NCBI GenBank assembly: GCA_021160245.1
Contig: JAGHCW010000208.1
Location: forward strand, 1-10,631
Direction of reading: 5' to 3'
Length of the DNA: 10,631 bases
Source of the DNA: a bacterium
Lineage (GTDB): Bacteria; B130-G9
In this document: positions 1,385-5,775 of the stretch, in pieces
Layout of the letters: each line of letters starts with the position of its first letter
Numbering within the stretch: the stretch's first letter is position 1
Notes under the pieces: model-generated
What the model saw: only the letters and a program-made list of their open reading frames with translations
Database searches by the model: none
What the model was told of the DNA's origin: nothing
Translations under genes and position numbers: made by a program

Positions 1385-1591
1385 TAGCTGTCATCTCCGC
1401 TGTTTTAAGTTGACCCCGGATGTGATCATCACGCAGAAGGCAATCCAGCCTAGCCCAAATTCCCTCTCATAATCTGCATACCCACCGTCGAATCGTCAAG
1501 CCCCGATGACAAGGATATGGCGTCACTCTAAGCAAACCCAACTCCGATCATCTGCTTGACCCGGGAACGCTGATTGCATAATATCCAGCCT
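1385..1591. promoter_or_regulatory. Divergent intergenic region
   Basis: This region separates the minus-strand radical SAM gene from the plus-strand restriction gene and should hold both promoters. The plus-strand promoter is clear at 1556-1584 and is entered separately. For the minus strand, a TTGACG box at 1494-1499 is the best -35 candidate, but I see only a poor -10 near it. TTGACCC followed by G-rich sequence occurs twice, at about 1410 and 1556. I see no RNA gene or hairpin of note. Confidence 0.5.
1556..1584 (+). promoter_or_regulatory. Predicted sigma-70 promoter of the restriction gene
   Basis: TTGACC at 1556-1561 and TAATAT at 1579-1584 are separated by 17 bases, the ideal sigma-70 spacing. 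Transcription would start about seven bases past the -10 box, around 1591, which is next to the ATG at 1592. This predicts a leaderless or nearly leaderless mRNA and fits the absence of a ribosome binding site before that ATG. Confidence 0.5.
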
Positions 1592-4459
1592 ATGAAGCAC
1601 GCACCTGATACCATTAAGCGACTTATCGAAACATTCGGCGAGAATATCGACTCCTACCGATCTGGTTCCTATAACGAGGCGCGGGTTCGCGTCGAGTTCA
1701 TCGACCCGATGTTCAAGGCGCTGGGATGGGATGTGAGCAACGAGGCGGGCTATGCCGAGGCGTTCAAGGATGTCATCCACGAGGACGCCATCAAGGTTGG
1801 CGGCGCGACGAAGGCTCCGGACTACTGCTTTCGCATCGGCGGCACGCGGAAATTCTTCGTTGAGGCAAAGAAACCTGCCGTCAACATCCGAACCGATCCG
1901 ACGCCAGCGTATCAGCTCCGCCGTTACGCATGGTCGGCCAAGCTGCCGCTGAGCATCCTGACCGATTTCGAGGAGTTCGCGGTCTATGACTGCAGGATGC
2001 GGCCTGTGCAGCATGATAAGGCCTCGATGGGACGGATACTCTACATCAAATACACGGATTACATCGACCGTTGGGACGAAATTGCGAGCGTCTTCTCGAA
2101 AGAGGCGATCCTCAAAGGCTCGTTCGACAAATATGCCGAATCGACCCGACGCAAGCGAGGCACGGCTGAGGTTGACGCCTCGTTCCTCGCCGAGATCGAA
2201 TCCTGGCGCGATGAGCTGGCCCGAAACATCGCCCGGCGCAACAGAGACCTCGGCGTCCGGGAGATGAACCAGGCCGTCCAGCGGACAGTTGACCGCATCC
2301 TGTTCTTGCGGATGTGCGAGGACCGAGGCGTCGAGAAATATGGGCGGCTTCAGGCGCTGCTCAACGGCGAGAACGTCTATGGGCTGCTGGGCGAGCTCTT
2401 CAATCAGGCGGACGACAAGTACAATTCGGGCCTATTCCATTTCAAGAGCGAGCGCGGCCGTGAAGGTTGCGACGCGTGGACGCTGGAACTCGCCATCGAC
2501 GACAAGGTGCTCAAGGGCATCATCAAGCGGCTCTATTATCCCGAATGCCCATTCGAGTTCTCCGTCTTACCCGCCGACATTCTCGGCCACATCTACGAGC
2601 AGTTCCTGGGCAAGGTCATCCGGCTCACGAAAGGCCATCAGGCGAAGGTCGAGGAAAAACCCGAGGTCAGAAAGGCCGGCGGCGTCTATTACACGCCAAC
2701 ATATATAGTCGATTACATCGTCGAGAACACAGTTGGCAAGCTCTGTAAAAAGAGCACGCCAAAGAAGGTCGCCAAACTGCGGATACTCGACCCGGCTTGC
2801 GGCTCTGGCTCGTTCCTTCTGGGCGCGTATCAGTTCCTGCTTGATTGGCACTTGAAATGGTATCTCGATCACGACCCCGAAAAGCACGCAAGAGGCAAGA
2901 AGCCCGCTGTCTATCAGAGCCGAGGCGGCTGGACGCTCACGACATCAATTCGCAAGGAGATTCTCCTAAACAACATCTACGGCGTTGACATCGACGCTCA
3001 GGCCGTTGAAGTAACAAAACTCTCGCTGCTCCTGAAGGTCCTAGAGGGACAGACCGCCGAGGGAATCAGGCAGCAACTCGCGCTCTTCCGAGAACGCGCC
3101 TTGCCCGACCTCGCCTCGAACATCAAATGCGGCAACAGCCTCATCGGCCCCGACTTCTACGACGGCAAGCAGACCTCCCTATTCGGCGAGGACGACCTCT
3201 ACCGCATCAACGCCTTCGATTGGAACAACGAGTTCCCGGAGATTATGGAGCGAGGCGGATTTGACGCGGTTATTGGGAATCCGCCGTATGGATCGTCACT
3301 GTCCGCTATTGAAAGGGACTATTTCCGAACACGGTTCGAGAAAACAGCACGGTCGTCTGATAGCTACGAACTTTTTCTTGGGAAGGCGATGATGCTTCTG
3401 GGTTCCGGAGGCCGCCTTTCAATGATTATCCCATCCTCTTGGCTAACCGGCGACAGGTTCTCCTGGTCACGGCGGACGCTTCTCACATCTCTTGACCCTG
3501 TGGCGGCATATGCCCTTCCATTCGACGTTTTCAAGGACGCTTACATAGATACGGCAATTGTCGTTCTAGCCCGATCTTCTGGTATTGATACGTGTCTTCT
3601 CCATTATTTCCCCAAGAAGGAGAAATTATCCGAGATTCCTCAGGGAATAGGTGTAGCCGTGCCTATCGACAATGTCCTGCGCGATCCAACCAACCGGCTG
3701 ACAGTCCTTCTCTCCATTGAGCTAGAACCGATTCTTAGCAAGGTGAATACGGCTGGCACTGCATTGGGCCAAATCTACCGGGTCCAACGCGGTGTGCAAC
3801 CATACAGCAGAAAGAAACACTCGGAGAGGCAGATTTCTGAGCGTTTTCTGCACGCAGACACGAAGCTGTCGGACGACTACTTGCCTGAATTGCAGGGATG
3901 CGAGCTTTCGCGCTACACCATTGCTGCCGAAAGATGCTCCTACATACGATTTTGCGACGATATTGCATCGAGTCGATCCATCGCCATCTTTAGCAACAGG
4001 CGGATTGTATTGCGACGGCTTCTGACGAGAAAGTTTCGTCTTCAGGCCTCTATGACGGCGGAAACGATGATAACAACAGACAATGTTCTAAACTTGGTCC
4101 CGACAGCTCCAGGATCATCCGTCGCTTTTGTCCTTGGAGTGCTTAACTCGAAATTGACCTCTTGGTTGTATGTCAACACATCTGCGACTGCTCAGAAAGA
4201 CGATTTTCCACAAGTTTATATCTCGGCGCTTCGACATTTGCGGATACCCGATTCTGACAGGGCCCATCACGATCGGATGGTTGAGTTGGTTGAGCGGATG
4301 TTGGAGTTGCACAAACGGCTTCAGGTGGTGCGGACGGAGCAGGACAAGACGCTCTTGCGACGGCAGATTGCCGCGACAGACGGCGAGATCGACCGGCTGG
4401 TCTATGAGCTGTATGGGCTGACTGAGGCGGAGATTAGGATTGTGGAGGGGAGCGGCTAA
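1592..4459 (+). CDS. Type IIG restriction endonuclease / adenine-specific DNA methyltransferase fusion (Eco57I-like)
   Basis: This single 955-residue protein should both cut and methylate DNA, as Type IIG enzymes do. The N-terminal part carries a PD-(D/E)xK nuclease core, with PD at 76-77 and EAK at 91-93. A helical linker leads to a gamma-type N6-adenine methyltransferase, with SAM-binding motif DPACGSG at about 400-406 and catalytic NPPY at 563-566. The remaining 390 or so residues hold the target-recognition region and end in a helical segment with RLVYELYGL, typical of the family's C-terminus. The length is normal and no frame is broken, so it looks functional. I chose ATG at 1592 over TTG at 1574 because the TTG lies inside the likely promoter. 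No separate methylase or specificity gene is needed or present. GC content drops in the recognition region (about 3290-4250) compared with the nuclease and methylase parts. Confidence 0.93.
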   Translation: MKHAPDTIKRLIETFGENIDSYRSGSYNEARVRVEFIDPMFKALGWDVSNEAGYAEAFKDVIHEDAIKVGGATKAPDYCFRIGGTRKFFVEAKKPAVNIRTDPTPAYQLRRYAWSAKLPLSILTDFEEFAVYDCRMRPVQHDKASMGRILYIKYTDYIDRWDEIASVFSKEAILKGSFDKYAESTRRKRGTAEVDASFLAEIESWRDELARNIARRNRDLGVREMNQAVQRTVDRILFLRMCEDRGVEKYGRLQALLNGENVYGLLGELFNQADDKYNSGLFHFKSERGREGCDAWTLELAIDDKVLKGIIKRLYYPECPFEFSVLPADILGHIYEQFLGKVIRLTKGHQAKVEEKPEVRKAGGVYYTPTYIVDYIVENTVGKLCKKSTPKKVAKLRILDPACGSGSFLLGAYQFLLDWHLKWYLDHDPEKHARGKKPAVYQSRGGWTLTTSIRKEILLNNIYGVDIDAQAVEVTKLSLLLKVLEGQTAEGIRQQLALFRERALPDLASNIKCGNSLIGPDFYDGKQTSLFGEDDLYRINAFDWNNEFPEIMERGGFDAVIGNPPYGSSLSAIERDYFRTRFEKTARSSDSYELFLGKAMMLLGSGGRLSMIIPSSWLTGDRFSWSRRTLLTSLDPVAAYALPFDVFKDAYIDTAIVVLARSSGIDTCLLHYFPKKEKLSEIPQGIGVAVPIDNVLRDPTNRLTVLLSIELEPILSKVNTAGTALGQIYRVQRGVQPYSRKKHSERQISERFLHADTKLSDDYLPELQGCELSRYTIAAERCSYIRFCDDIASSRSIAIFSNRRIVLRRLLTRKFRLQASMTAETMITTDNVLNLVPTAPGSSVAFVLGVLNSKLTSWLYVNTSATAQKDDFPQVYISALRHLRIPDSDRAHHDRMVELVERMLELHKRLQVVRTEQDKTLLRRQIAATDGEIDRLVYELYGLTEAEIRIVEGSG
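4361..4445 (+). repeat. Upstream copy of an 85-bp imperfect direct repeat (3' end of the restriction gene)
   Basis: This stretch encodes the restriction enzyme's last residues (RQIAATDGEIDRLVYELYGL and a few beyond). It aligns without gaps to 5206-5290, and I count 74 of 85 identical bases, rising to 51 of 55 in the last 55 bases. The match stops 11 bases before the end of the stop codon of the restriction gene. Confidence 0.85.
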
Positions 4460-4463
4460 GATC

Positions 4464-5252
4464 ATGCGACAGGGCGTAGGGTGGCTTAACAGGCTAATTC
4501 GACACATTACGCGAGACGTCTGTCTGAAGCTTGGAGGACTTCCTCTGGCGCGACGGGCCAACGCGTTTTTTCAGCGCAGGTGTTTTCTTAGATACGCTTG
4601 TAAGGACAGACTCCTACTTGGCCTCATAGGATCTATCGCAGTATTTTGGATTGCTCAGGCTGCTCTCCCCTGGGGAGAATATCCGACTTGGAGGGGGATC
4701 GTTTTCGTCCCGGCCTTCACAGTAGGGATTCTCGTCACGGTTGTGCTAGTTATCAGGGAACGTTGGAAGAGCATCAGGGACATGTGCAATGCGGGCAGGA
4801 ATCTCTATGAAATGGATCTTACCCTGGAGAAGTTGATGTGTTCGTTAGCCGGCCTTGCAGGCACAAATGCGAAGCCCAGATCATGCAAAGCATTGAATCA
4901 GTTCACATTGCTGGTGGCCAGATACGAAGCACATGTAGTATATATTCAATCTCTACTGCAGGACATTATGTCTATGCGTCAGAAGCGCGAGGAGATATCC
5001 GGTTTGGTTGCCGCATGGTTTGATATGCTTCATTTGCGCACGCAATTGTCTTTGCTAGTATTGGAGGGGCGGTACAAGGTCCAGGAGCCAAAACTGCAAG
5101 GGCTACTTGATTTAGCAAAGAAATGCAGACAAACGGCGCGATTGTTTGCAGATACAATCCGGGATGGTAAAATGATTATCAGAACGGGCAAGACAAAACA
5201 GAAGACGGCAGATCCCCGCGACGGACGACTAGCCCGACCGGCTGGTCTATGA
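4464..5252 (+). CDS. Unrecognised two-transmembrane protein with a helical cytoplasmic domain
   Basis: I do not recognise this 262-residue protein. A basic N-terminal stretch is followed by two hydrophobic segments at about residues 50-70 (LLLGLIGSIAVFWIAQAALP) and 78-97 (GIVFVPAFTVGILVTVVLVI). After these come about 150 mostly helical, mixed-charge residues with several cysteines and a basic tail. The positive residues predict the large C-terminal domain on the cytoplasmic side. ATG at 4464 is preferred to the TTG at 4440 that overlaps the restriction gene, because GGAGGGGAG at 4444-4452 is a strong ribosome binding site for it. It starts four bases after the restriction stop, so the two are probably co-transcribed. 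Local GC is low (23 of 60 bases at 4921-4980). The last 15 or so codons are derived, in another frame, from the repeated 3' end of the restriction gene. A membrane-acting defence accessory is possible from context only. Confidence 0.72.
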   Translation: MRQGVGWLNRLIRHITRDVCLKLGGLPLARRANAFFQRRCFLRYACKDRLLLGLIGSIAVFWIAQAALPWGEYPTWRGIVFVPAFTVGILVTVVLVIRERWKSIRDMCNAGRNLYEMDLTLEKLMCSLAGLAGTNAKPRSCKALNQFTLLVARYEAHVVYIQSLLQDIMSMRQKREEISGLVAAWFDMLHLRTQLSLLVLEGRYKVQEPKLQGLLDLAKKCRQTARLFADTIRDGKMIIRTGKTKQKTADPRDGRLARPAGL

Positions 5253-5292
5253 TCTGTATGGGTTGAATGAGGCGGAGATTCGGATTGTGGAT
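5206..5292 (+). pseudogene. Decayed second copy of the restriction gene's 3' end
   Basis: In the frame of the restriction gene this copy reads RQIPATDD, a TAG stop, then PDRLVYDLYGLNEAEIRIVD. It is clearly the same C-terminal segment as at 4361-4445 but broken by the stop and cut off from any upstream part. It forms the 3' end of the two-transmembrane gene in a different frame and runs on past that gene's TGA. It may be left from a related restriction gene that once ended here, or from a duplication made when the membrane gene arrived. Four of the last 55 bases differ, so it is not a fresh copy. Confidence 0.8.
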
Positions 5293-5301
5293 TGCGGATT
5301 G
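5281..5301 (+). repeat. Three tandem 7-bp units at the end of the restriction remnant
   Basis: The sequence is CGGATTG, TGGATTG, CGGATTG, followed by A. If one unit is removed, the remnant frame reads R-I-V-D and then TGA, close to where the intact enzyme stops. The extra unit therefore probably arose by slippage after the copy lost function. Confidence 0.65.
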
Positions 5302-5358: not shown

Positions 5359-5398
5359 AAAATCTTACGGGGGGCCGTTATTGGTCCGGCGCCGTAAG
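5359..5398 (-). terminator. Predicted Rho-independent terminator of hicBA
   Basis: On the minus strand CTTACGG (5398-5392) pairs with CCGTAAG (5370-5364), and inside it GCCG (5390-5387) pairs with CGGC (5377-5374). This gives about 11 base pairs broken by a small internal loop. ATTTT (5363-5359) follows directly. The hairpin includes the last codons and stop of hicA, which is common for compact toxin operons. The T-run is short, so efficiency is uncertain. Confidence 0.45.
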
Positions 5399-5563
5399 CG
5401 CTTGGCAGATTTTCCTCGCGAGTTTCTCAGGAATCTCAGTATGACGCGGCACGGCCTCCACATGGCCGGTTTGAGGATTACACCACAGGGAATGCGATCG
5501 GCCTTCCCGCTTCAGATAGCAGCCGTGACGTCTGAGACGTCTGAGTAAGGCGCTACGCTTCAT
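5378..5563 (-). CDS. hicA: HicA-family mRNA interferase toxin
   Basis: This 61-residue protein matches the HicA toxin family, small double-stranded-RNA-binding-fold ribonucleases that cleave mRNA when free of their antitoxin. The N-terminal helix KRSALLRRLRRHGCYLKREG is followed by the catalytic histidine in the segment GRSHSLW, then VPRHTEIPEKLARKI, matching the family's conserved VPxH...I..G/A...I pattern. The length is typical. It overlaps the antitoxin gene by one base (TAATG), so translation is likely coupled and hicB is made first. A 9-bp tandem repeat near its 5' end encodes LRR twice. Nothing suggests it is broken. Confidence 0.88.
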   Translation of the reverse strand: MKRSALLRRLRRHGCYLKREGRSHSLWCNPQTGHVEAVPRHTEIPEKLARKICQALTAPDQ

Positions 5564-5775
5564 TATATGCTGACAACAGCCCGCTCTGCGTCTTCTGGCA
5601 CGCCTCGAAGCGCATCTTCCCGTCGGTCTTCAAGGATGAGGGCGATTGCCTCGGACAAACTCTTGAGGCACTGCTCCTTCGTGCGGCCTTGACCGTTGGC
5701 GCCGGGGACTTCAGGGCTATAGGCTATGAACCAGCCTTCATCCTGCTCAATAATAGCTGTGAACTCATTGTGCAT
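5563..5775 (-). CDS. hicB: HicB-family antitoxin (short form)
   Basis: This 70-residue protein is the partner antitoxin of the HicA gene just downstream. It shows the partial RNase H-like HicB fold: FTAIIEQDEGWFIAYSPEVPG, then a G-x-T-xx-ECLxxL-like segment (GQGRTKEQCLKSLSEAIALI), which in the family folds over the toxin's active site. It has no C-terminal helix-turn-helix or ribbon-helix-helix, so direct repression of its own promoter is less certain than in long HicB proteins. GGAGAG six bases before the ATG at 5775 is a good ribosome binding site. The antitoxin-first order is common for short-form HicBA pairs. Confidence 0.88.
   Translation of the reverse strand: MHNEFTAIIEQDEGWFIAYSPEVPGANGQGRTKEQCLKSLSEAIALILEDRREDALRGVPEDAERAVVSI

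Follow-up and report, generated by a model that had tools for sequence, protein, structure and literature searches.

The subject of this work is a repeated 3' end of a restriction-modification (RM) gene in contig JAGHCW010000208.1 of the bacterial assembly GCA_021160245.1. The stretch analysed, all 10,631 nt of which are referred to here as the window, is one entire contig (contig 48) of a 3.43-Mb metagenome-assembled genome (MAG) of Coatesbacteria type in 244 contigs. The RM gene (1592-4459, within the open reading frame (ORF) 1574-4459) encodes a protein of 955 aa, which matched the Pfam families HSDR_N, N6_Mtase, Eco57I, and TaqI_C and for which the best PADLOC model was REase_MTase_IIG (E = 4e-186). 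With a nuclease, an N6-adenine methylase, and a recognition domain in one polypeptide, the gene fits the definition of a type IIG enzyme, its activity being predicted from the sequence. It is followed by a membrane gene and, on the opposite strand, by a HicAB-like toxin-antitoxin pair (Table 1).

An earlier note on this DNA had reported that positions 4361-4445 and 5206-5290 align without gaps at 74 of 85 bases, and this count was found to be exact. The repeat extends to 77 identical positions out of 88 (4359-4446 and 5204-5291) and was recovered by BLASTN within the locus with E = 3e-27. When the 85-mer was slid over both strands of the window, the mean number of matches was 21.8 (sd 4.4) and the next best placement reached only 41 of 85; therefore, a chance resemblance, which the earlier note had allowed for, is excluded. 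The two copies also have the roles assigned to them there: the upstream copy is the C-terminus of the restriction enzyme, within its ORF, and the downstream copy, interrupted by a TAG, is read in another frame as the tail of the membrane gene, giving ORF 4464-5252 its last ~15 codons and stop. The likeness of the downstream copy to the RM tail on another contig of the same genome (C130) continues to 5300. On balance, the repeat appears to be what remains of the tail of an earlier form of the restriction gene, a scar left when an exchange took place at the type IIG RM 3' end.

Table 1. Features at the RM locus of the window (G, genome; C, contig of that genome)
Feature	Position	Strand	Remarks
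Type IIG restriction enzyme-methyltransferase gene (activity predicted)	1592..4459	+	HSDR_N nuclease, N6/Eco57I methylase, TaqI_C recognition domain, conserved tail
Conserved RM 5' block (nuclease and methylase)	1575..3290	+	DNA identity 82% to G001:C27 and 77% to G002:C246; ends at 3290
Exchangeable recognition domain, GC3 0.53	3291..4255	+	No DNA match to relatives
Conserved RM tail (CT block)	4256..4459	+	82% DNA identity to G001:C27 restarts at 4256
Repeat copy 1, working RM 3' end	4359..4446	+	Ungapped alignment
Membrane gene, 262 aa, two predicted helices	4464..5252	+	Begins 5 nt past the RM stop; last codons in copy 2
Repeat copy 2, probably a decayed RM 3' end that was displaced; TAG in the RM frame	5204..5291	+	Alignment
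GATTGTGGATTGCGGATTG run, edge of copy 2	5276..5300	+	Same motif flanks RM tails in G001
HicA-like toxin	5378..5563	-	Pfam HicA_toxin
HicB-like antitoxin	5563..5775	-	Weak Pfam matches to HicB-like families; 61 of 70 aa identical to G001:C132 HicB

Recurrence and probable origin of the RM tail copies

A scan of genome contigs, most of them from MAGs, yielded 44 relatives of the RM gene in many phyla. Second and third copies of the RM 3' end, mostly 75-92% identical and with genes between them, were found downstream in Vicinamibacteraceae, Chloroflexi, Anaerolineales, Planctomycetota, and others. In a matched test at 40 RM loci, same-strand downstream copies were sought for the last 210 bp of the gene and for ten other 210-bp segments. 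Seven of these loci had been preselected (the window, the relative G001, and loci fetched for copies already seen), and 33 were unselected. Copies of the last 210 bp were present at 9 of the 33 unselected loci, from several phyla, and at 16 of all 40, whereas each of the ten other segments gave either no match or one match of 23-34 bp. At the nine unselected loci the recurring part was the last ~45-195 bp of the RM gene, again with genes between.

The tail was also surveyed in 386 genomes, in comparison with a better conserved internal segment and with the RM 5' end. A tail match in a frame of no more than 150 aa was taken as an orphan tail, short frames were tallied by hand among the matches listed (E up to ~1e-4), and 7 matches at contig edges were left out. 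Among the matches listed, 142 were to the tail model, and 50 of the 135 that remained after exclusion of the edges lay in such short frames, as against none of 105 for the internal segment (Fisher p = 4e-15). For the RM 5' end, ~8 of 62 matches were in short frames, mostly remnants in Coatesbacteria, together with one split gene and weak matches. Orphan tails are present in single-contig genomes (G060, G187, G192, and G261) and therefore are not solely assembly artefacts. RM tails were also seen at contig starts, as if assemblies break there (G377:C102, G121:C98, G040:C32, G151:C20, and G263:C2), and may in some cases hide further arrays.

The left edges of the tail copies range from about -195 to -44, with recurrent edges near -126/-132 in L066, L067, L074, and L078 (L, locus) and near -103 in Coatesbacteria. 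A fixed insertion site, considered for five copies that start near -126/-132, was dropped, because other copies start elsewhere and some of the five are not independent. One exceptional downstream copy (L158 4852-4998, G105:C52), with a PIN toxin-antitoxin pair as cargo, retains the left part of the tail (model positions 2-50) without the end.

Over ten pairs of RM tail and copy, the differences were mostly synonymous (pS 0.39, pN 0.10, p = 8.5e-19), which indicates that the copies diverged while both were coding and do not represent fresh duplications. Furthermore, when each of 11 copies was compared with 54 RM tails, the resident RM gene was the nearest for 9. Taken with the synonymous bias, this indicates that the copies descend from two related RM genes, both functional, which later came to lie at one locus. 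The earlier note had left two routes open, recombination with a relative and duplicative insertion; the former fits these values and the latter does not. In the window pair alone the synonymous excess is slight (pS 0.19, pN 0.11), which is compatible with some decay after displacement. The loci thus share two features with known displacement loci, namely 3' fragments of older gene versions with older genes retained downstream of them, and fragments derived from different working alleles, the latter evident over the ten pairs and weak in the window pair taken by itself. A diversity-generating retroelement was rejected as the source of the differences, since these involve all four bases and are not adenine-specific, and no reverse transcriptase is among the annotated genes of the window.

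Allele structure and the genes beside the tails

A conserved 5' part and an exchangeable 3' part were seen in nearly all allele pairs compared. Pairs of RM loci have ~1.7 kb at the 5' side and ~220 bp at the 3' end in common, while the ~1.1-kb recognition domain and the cargo, that is, the genes beside the tails, are unrelated with few exceptions. The 5' block is likely to be the left homology arm for exchange. In the window, the GC content at third codon positions (GC3) is 0.53 in the membrane gene as it is in the recognition domain, compared with 0.75 in the RM 5' part and 0.78-0.79 in the tail (p = 1e-11 for the recognition domain versus the methylase part). Because the recognition domain and the membrane gene share this value, the new recognition domain, the tail, and the membrane gene may have arrived together, a view that draws chiefly on composition. 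The ~60 bp before the RM start (window 1531-1591) are kept in the copy on contig C28 of the same genome (87% over 249 bp including the gene start), and the leader therefore moves together with the RM gene. Relatives of the latter on plasmids were at most 40% identical, with best matches that end before the tail, and yielded no before/after pair.

According to the earlier note, empty sites or different genes between the enzyme's C-terminus and a downstream remnant in related genomes would speak for its interpretation. In the relatives, the genes that separate the C-terminal end of the RM gene from another RM 3' end do indeed differ, and remnants with fused RM 5' and 3' ends were found as well. 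Contig C130 of the window's own genome carries, in order, an RM 5' end (residues 10-68), Nmad3, an RM 3' end, a HicBA-type pair, and another RM 3' piece, and contig C28 has the same junction of the 5' end with Nmad3. In G001, an RM gene is followed by another membrane gene on the opposite strand, an RM 3' remnant, a HicB-HicA pair, and a further remnant, and more orphan tails lie on its contigs 86, 106, 132, and 149. In G003, the fused RM 5' and 3' ends are followed by a HicBA pair.

The window HicAB (5397-5775) is 84% identical in DNA to the pair on G001:C132, which is flanked by RM tails there, and it is probably an older cargo. The HicBA pair of C130 is likewise 80% identical to the pair behind a tail on G001:C149. 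In both cases the likeness is confined to the cargo and the tails, and the chromosomal neighbours differ; therefore, in two genera the same combination of cargo and RM tails is found at unrelated chromosomal sites. The orthologous orphan tails of G001:C106 and G003:C145 differ by several amino-acid changes and a 6-nt insertion, as expected for relics.

Several further arrangements were observed. Nmad3 lies inside a former RM gene and is joined to the RM 5' end at one point on both contigs (L031 8283-9437 = G000:C130; L032 1-406 = C28), the Nmad3 part being nearly identical between the two and the RM part ~9% different. Two orphan tails of one genome (L100 119-210 on G001:C86 and L101 269-360 on G001:C106) share 98% of their bases over 92 bp, while the sequences to the left and right of them are unrelated. 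RM genes cut down to a 5' end joined to a 3' end occur at L160 4501-4746 (G115:C192), L103 800-1055 (G003:C15), and L169 ~4673-4928 (G060:C1); the one in G115:C192 is an open frame of 81 aa, directly followed by a gene of 247 aa with a hydrophobic N-terminus. A dispersed ~90-bp repeat with GGATTGC runs adjoins RM tails in Coatesbacteria (window 5276-5300, L099 9404-9517, L187, and L188) and could join in rearrangements.

The cargo includes PtuA and PtuB of Septu (L153), a SIR2 protein with a TIR/Dsr1-like partner (L151), the PADLOC candidates PDC-M11A, PDC-M24B, and PDC-S13, and, with tails on both sides, ImmA/HTH and DUF4411 (L142). HEPN, TIR, DUF3800, DUF559, RhuM, and Nmad3 were also found directly behind or between tails, as were toxin-antitoxin-type cargo (DUF4258-DUF2283 pairs, PIN pairs, and HicBA) and several genes without a family. 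The last group includes the window membrane gene, which has two hydrophobic stretches (residues ~50-70 and 75-100) and a single-sequence AlphaFold2 model of low confidence (pLDDT 51). Neither a relative of this gene nor a match to a known defence family was found in Pfam, PADLOC, NCBIfam, 98 genomes, IMG/VR, and plasmids. Thus, the suggestion of the earlier note that the site collects accessory defence genes is supported across phyla, as the Septu, SIR2/TIR, and toxin-antitoxin cargo shows, and is not supported for the membrane gene of the window, for which no relative was detectable. The packing is close: among 67 partial matches, a few of which are diverged RM genes, the next same-strand start lies within 30 nt of the tail stop in 27, and the preceding gene ends within 40 nt of the left tail edge in 20. 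An ATGA overlap with the following gene is common among working RM genes. At L074 (9826-11306), the first codons of the DUF3800 gene that lies behind the second tail recur in the third RM tail, and therefore this unit was probably duplicated in tandem or inserted twice. The presence of such tails directly beside defence and toxin-antitoxin genes in many unrelated bacteria suggests that these genes are collected at the ends of restriction genes and later pushed aside.

Proposed displacement and competing explanations

Our best reading, held with moderate confidence, is that recombination supplies the gene with another recognition domain, another tail, and new cargo, and that the earlier tail and cargo are thereby displaced, as in the arrays of Rhs and type VI secretion system (T6SS) genes. 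Incoming DNA would pair with the resident gene in the conserved 5' block and would introduce a different recognition domain together with the tail that belongs to the incoming DNA and the gene next to that tail, in the window the membrane gene. Its far end would join inside the resident tail, leaving the RM gene whole, and the old tail fragment and the old downstream gene (in the window probably HicAB) would be shifted downstream. Homology would be one-sided, RecA would presumably take part, and a dedicated recombinase would not be needed. Repeated events would produce arrays of RM gene, tail, cargo, tail, and older cargo, later loss of the RM gene would leave orphan tails in front of defence genes, and two tails, once present, could serve ordinary homologous recombination.

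Several points weigh against displacement. No empty/occupied pair of close strains was found and no event was seen directly, and the joint arrival of recognition domain and first cargo is argued chiefly from composition. The varied left edges fall in the tail more often than free illegitimate joining predicts, so that a specific site or selection may be involved. Moreover, the window itself contributes an array of one extra tail only and a pair with a small synonymous excess, and the genome counts are raw counts that ignore kinship among genomes.

The RM tail could instead be a portable docking sequence, such that units of a tail and a defence gene circulate among type IIG genes across phyla, either integrase-free or with a trans-acting function. 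On entering at the RM 3' end, such units would re-create the RM frame and be transcribed together with the gene, and type IIG genes would be platforms on which defence genes collect; we regard this as doubtful. Likewise improbable is a cassette system in which an RM tail with one cargo gene or pair is excised as a circle and inserted at RM tails by a trans recombinase or RecA, the tail acting as attC/attI. Such a system would account for the tandem arrays (L074 and L136), for cargo with tails on both sides and no RM gene (L142 and G001:C132), for the same HicAB beside tails at unrelated places, for the close packing, and for the recurrent left edges near -126/-132 and -103. However, the left edges also lie at differing positions, and the copies within a locus need close similarity, which points to homology and not to a short core. 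No integrase or recombinase was found among the annotated genes of the arrays examined, and the window, to which the check for an integron integrase was confined, contains no gene for one. An integron attC site was rejected because the tail copies have no consistent fold on either strand (z from -2.6 to +1.2, the best value being that of the working coding copy).

The orphan tails would be expected directly before cargo starts, where they are found, if tandem units of the order RM1-cargoA-RM2-cargoB had lost the RM2 body and the tail had survived as the carrier of the translation start region of cargoB. The fused remnants of G003:C15 and G115:C192 show that loss of the RM body is possible, and the drift of the orthologous tails in G001:C106 and G003:C145 agrees with such decay. 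We nevertheless think this origin improbable, since random deletion would be expected to spare longer 3' or internal pieces in many cases, yet no such piece was found in a short frame, and many cargo stops abut the tail edge with no remains between. As the comparison of alleles showed, an in-locus DNA search would miss an old recognition domain, and there only the closeness of cargo stop and tail edge is informative. Insertion of the membrane gene with a target duplication of ~88 bp, as proposed for Helicobacter RM units, is favoured by the direct repeat, since a ~100-bp target repeat flanking the insert is the signature of that process (PMC3874152), and by the slight synonymous excess of the window pair. 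It is nevertheless very unlikely, given the coding-type divergence over all loci, the tails before cargo that lack any RM gene, and the 3' end as the sole target ever seen. A function of the downstream copy as a small gene or element, such as a peptide, a terminator, or a regulatory RNA, is hardly credible: a few orphan tails do form part of short open frames that have a start codon (L065), but many copies, including that of the window, contain frameshifts or stops, orthologous orphan tails drift, and the copies have neither a match to an RNA family in Rfam nor a consistent fold.

Relation to known systems and possible meaning of the RM tails

Displacement of this kind has precedents. For the effector-immunity arrays of the Vibrio cholerae T6SS, sequential displacement via homology-facilitated illegitimate recombination was proposed, and a shifted 3' end of an old effector is mentioned (Kirchberger 2017, PMC5361080); C-terminal displacement in Rhs is attributed there to Jackson 2009. 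The RM arrays resemble these systems in having a conserved 5' part and a variable 3' part, in keeping and shifting the old downstream gene, sometimes with the old 3' end, and in the proposal of homology-anchored one-sided recombination without an integrase. In contrast, the gene displaced in T6SS and Rhs arrays is the immunity partner of the toxin, whereas in RM arrays it is an independent defence or toxin-antitoxin gene behind the restriction enzyme; in addition, conservation in the RM gene resumes past the variable domain with the tail, and loci of this kind are found in several phyla. RM units inserted with long target duplication (Nobusato 2000, as cited in PMC3874152 and PMC3077401) share with the present case the RM context and a direct repeat of ~100 bp around an inserted gene. 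There, however, it is the RM unit that has been inserted and the target that has been copied, whereas here the RM 3' end is the target and another gene is the insert; furthermore, the RM-tail copies across loci differ as two coding alleles do. Recognition domains of type I and IIG specificity genes are known to be swapped between conserved blocks by domain movement (PMC3077401), which stays inside the gene, whereas RM arrays involve downstream genes and displaced tails.

RM arrays are similar to integron cassettes in that new genes stand at the front of an array, older ones are pushed back, and the cargo includes toxin-antitoxin and defence genes, but no integrase was seen, the copies have no attC-like fold, and the repeated unit is a protein-coding RM sequence. 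In the minimal mobile elements of Neisseria, homologous recombination swaps different accessory genes, some of them RM genes, that lie between conserved sequences. Conserved chromosomal genes form the borders of those elements, whereas in the RM arrays this role falls to the tail of the RM gene itself, copies of which stay behind. No earlier report of displaced RM tails beside defence genes was found in the literature searched, which covered few subscription-journal papers or preprints and is thus weak evidence of absence.

If displacement is correct, the tails would be a concrete and countable trace of the turnover of defence islands, in which an RM tail marks the former direct downstream neighbours of a restriction gene, and the gene arrays behind type IIG enzymes would be explained. 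Displacement of the Rhs/T6SS type would thereby be extended to restriction enzymes, and a change in restriction specificity would be linked, in a testable manner, to the acquisition of a new defence gene. It would also offer a cheap route to undescribed defence genes, which would be whatever starts just behind an orphan RM tail.

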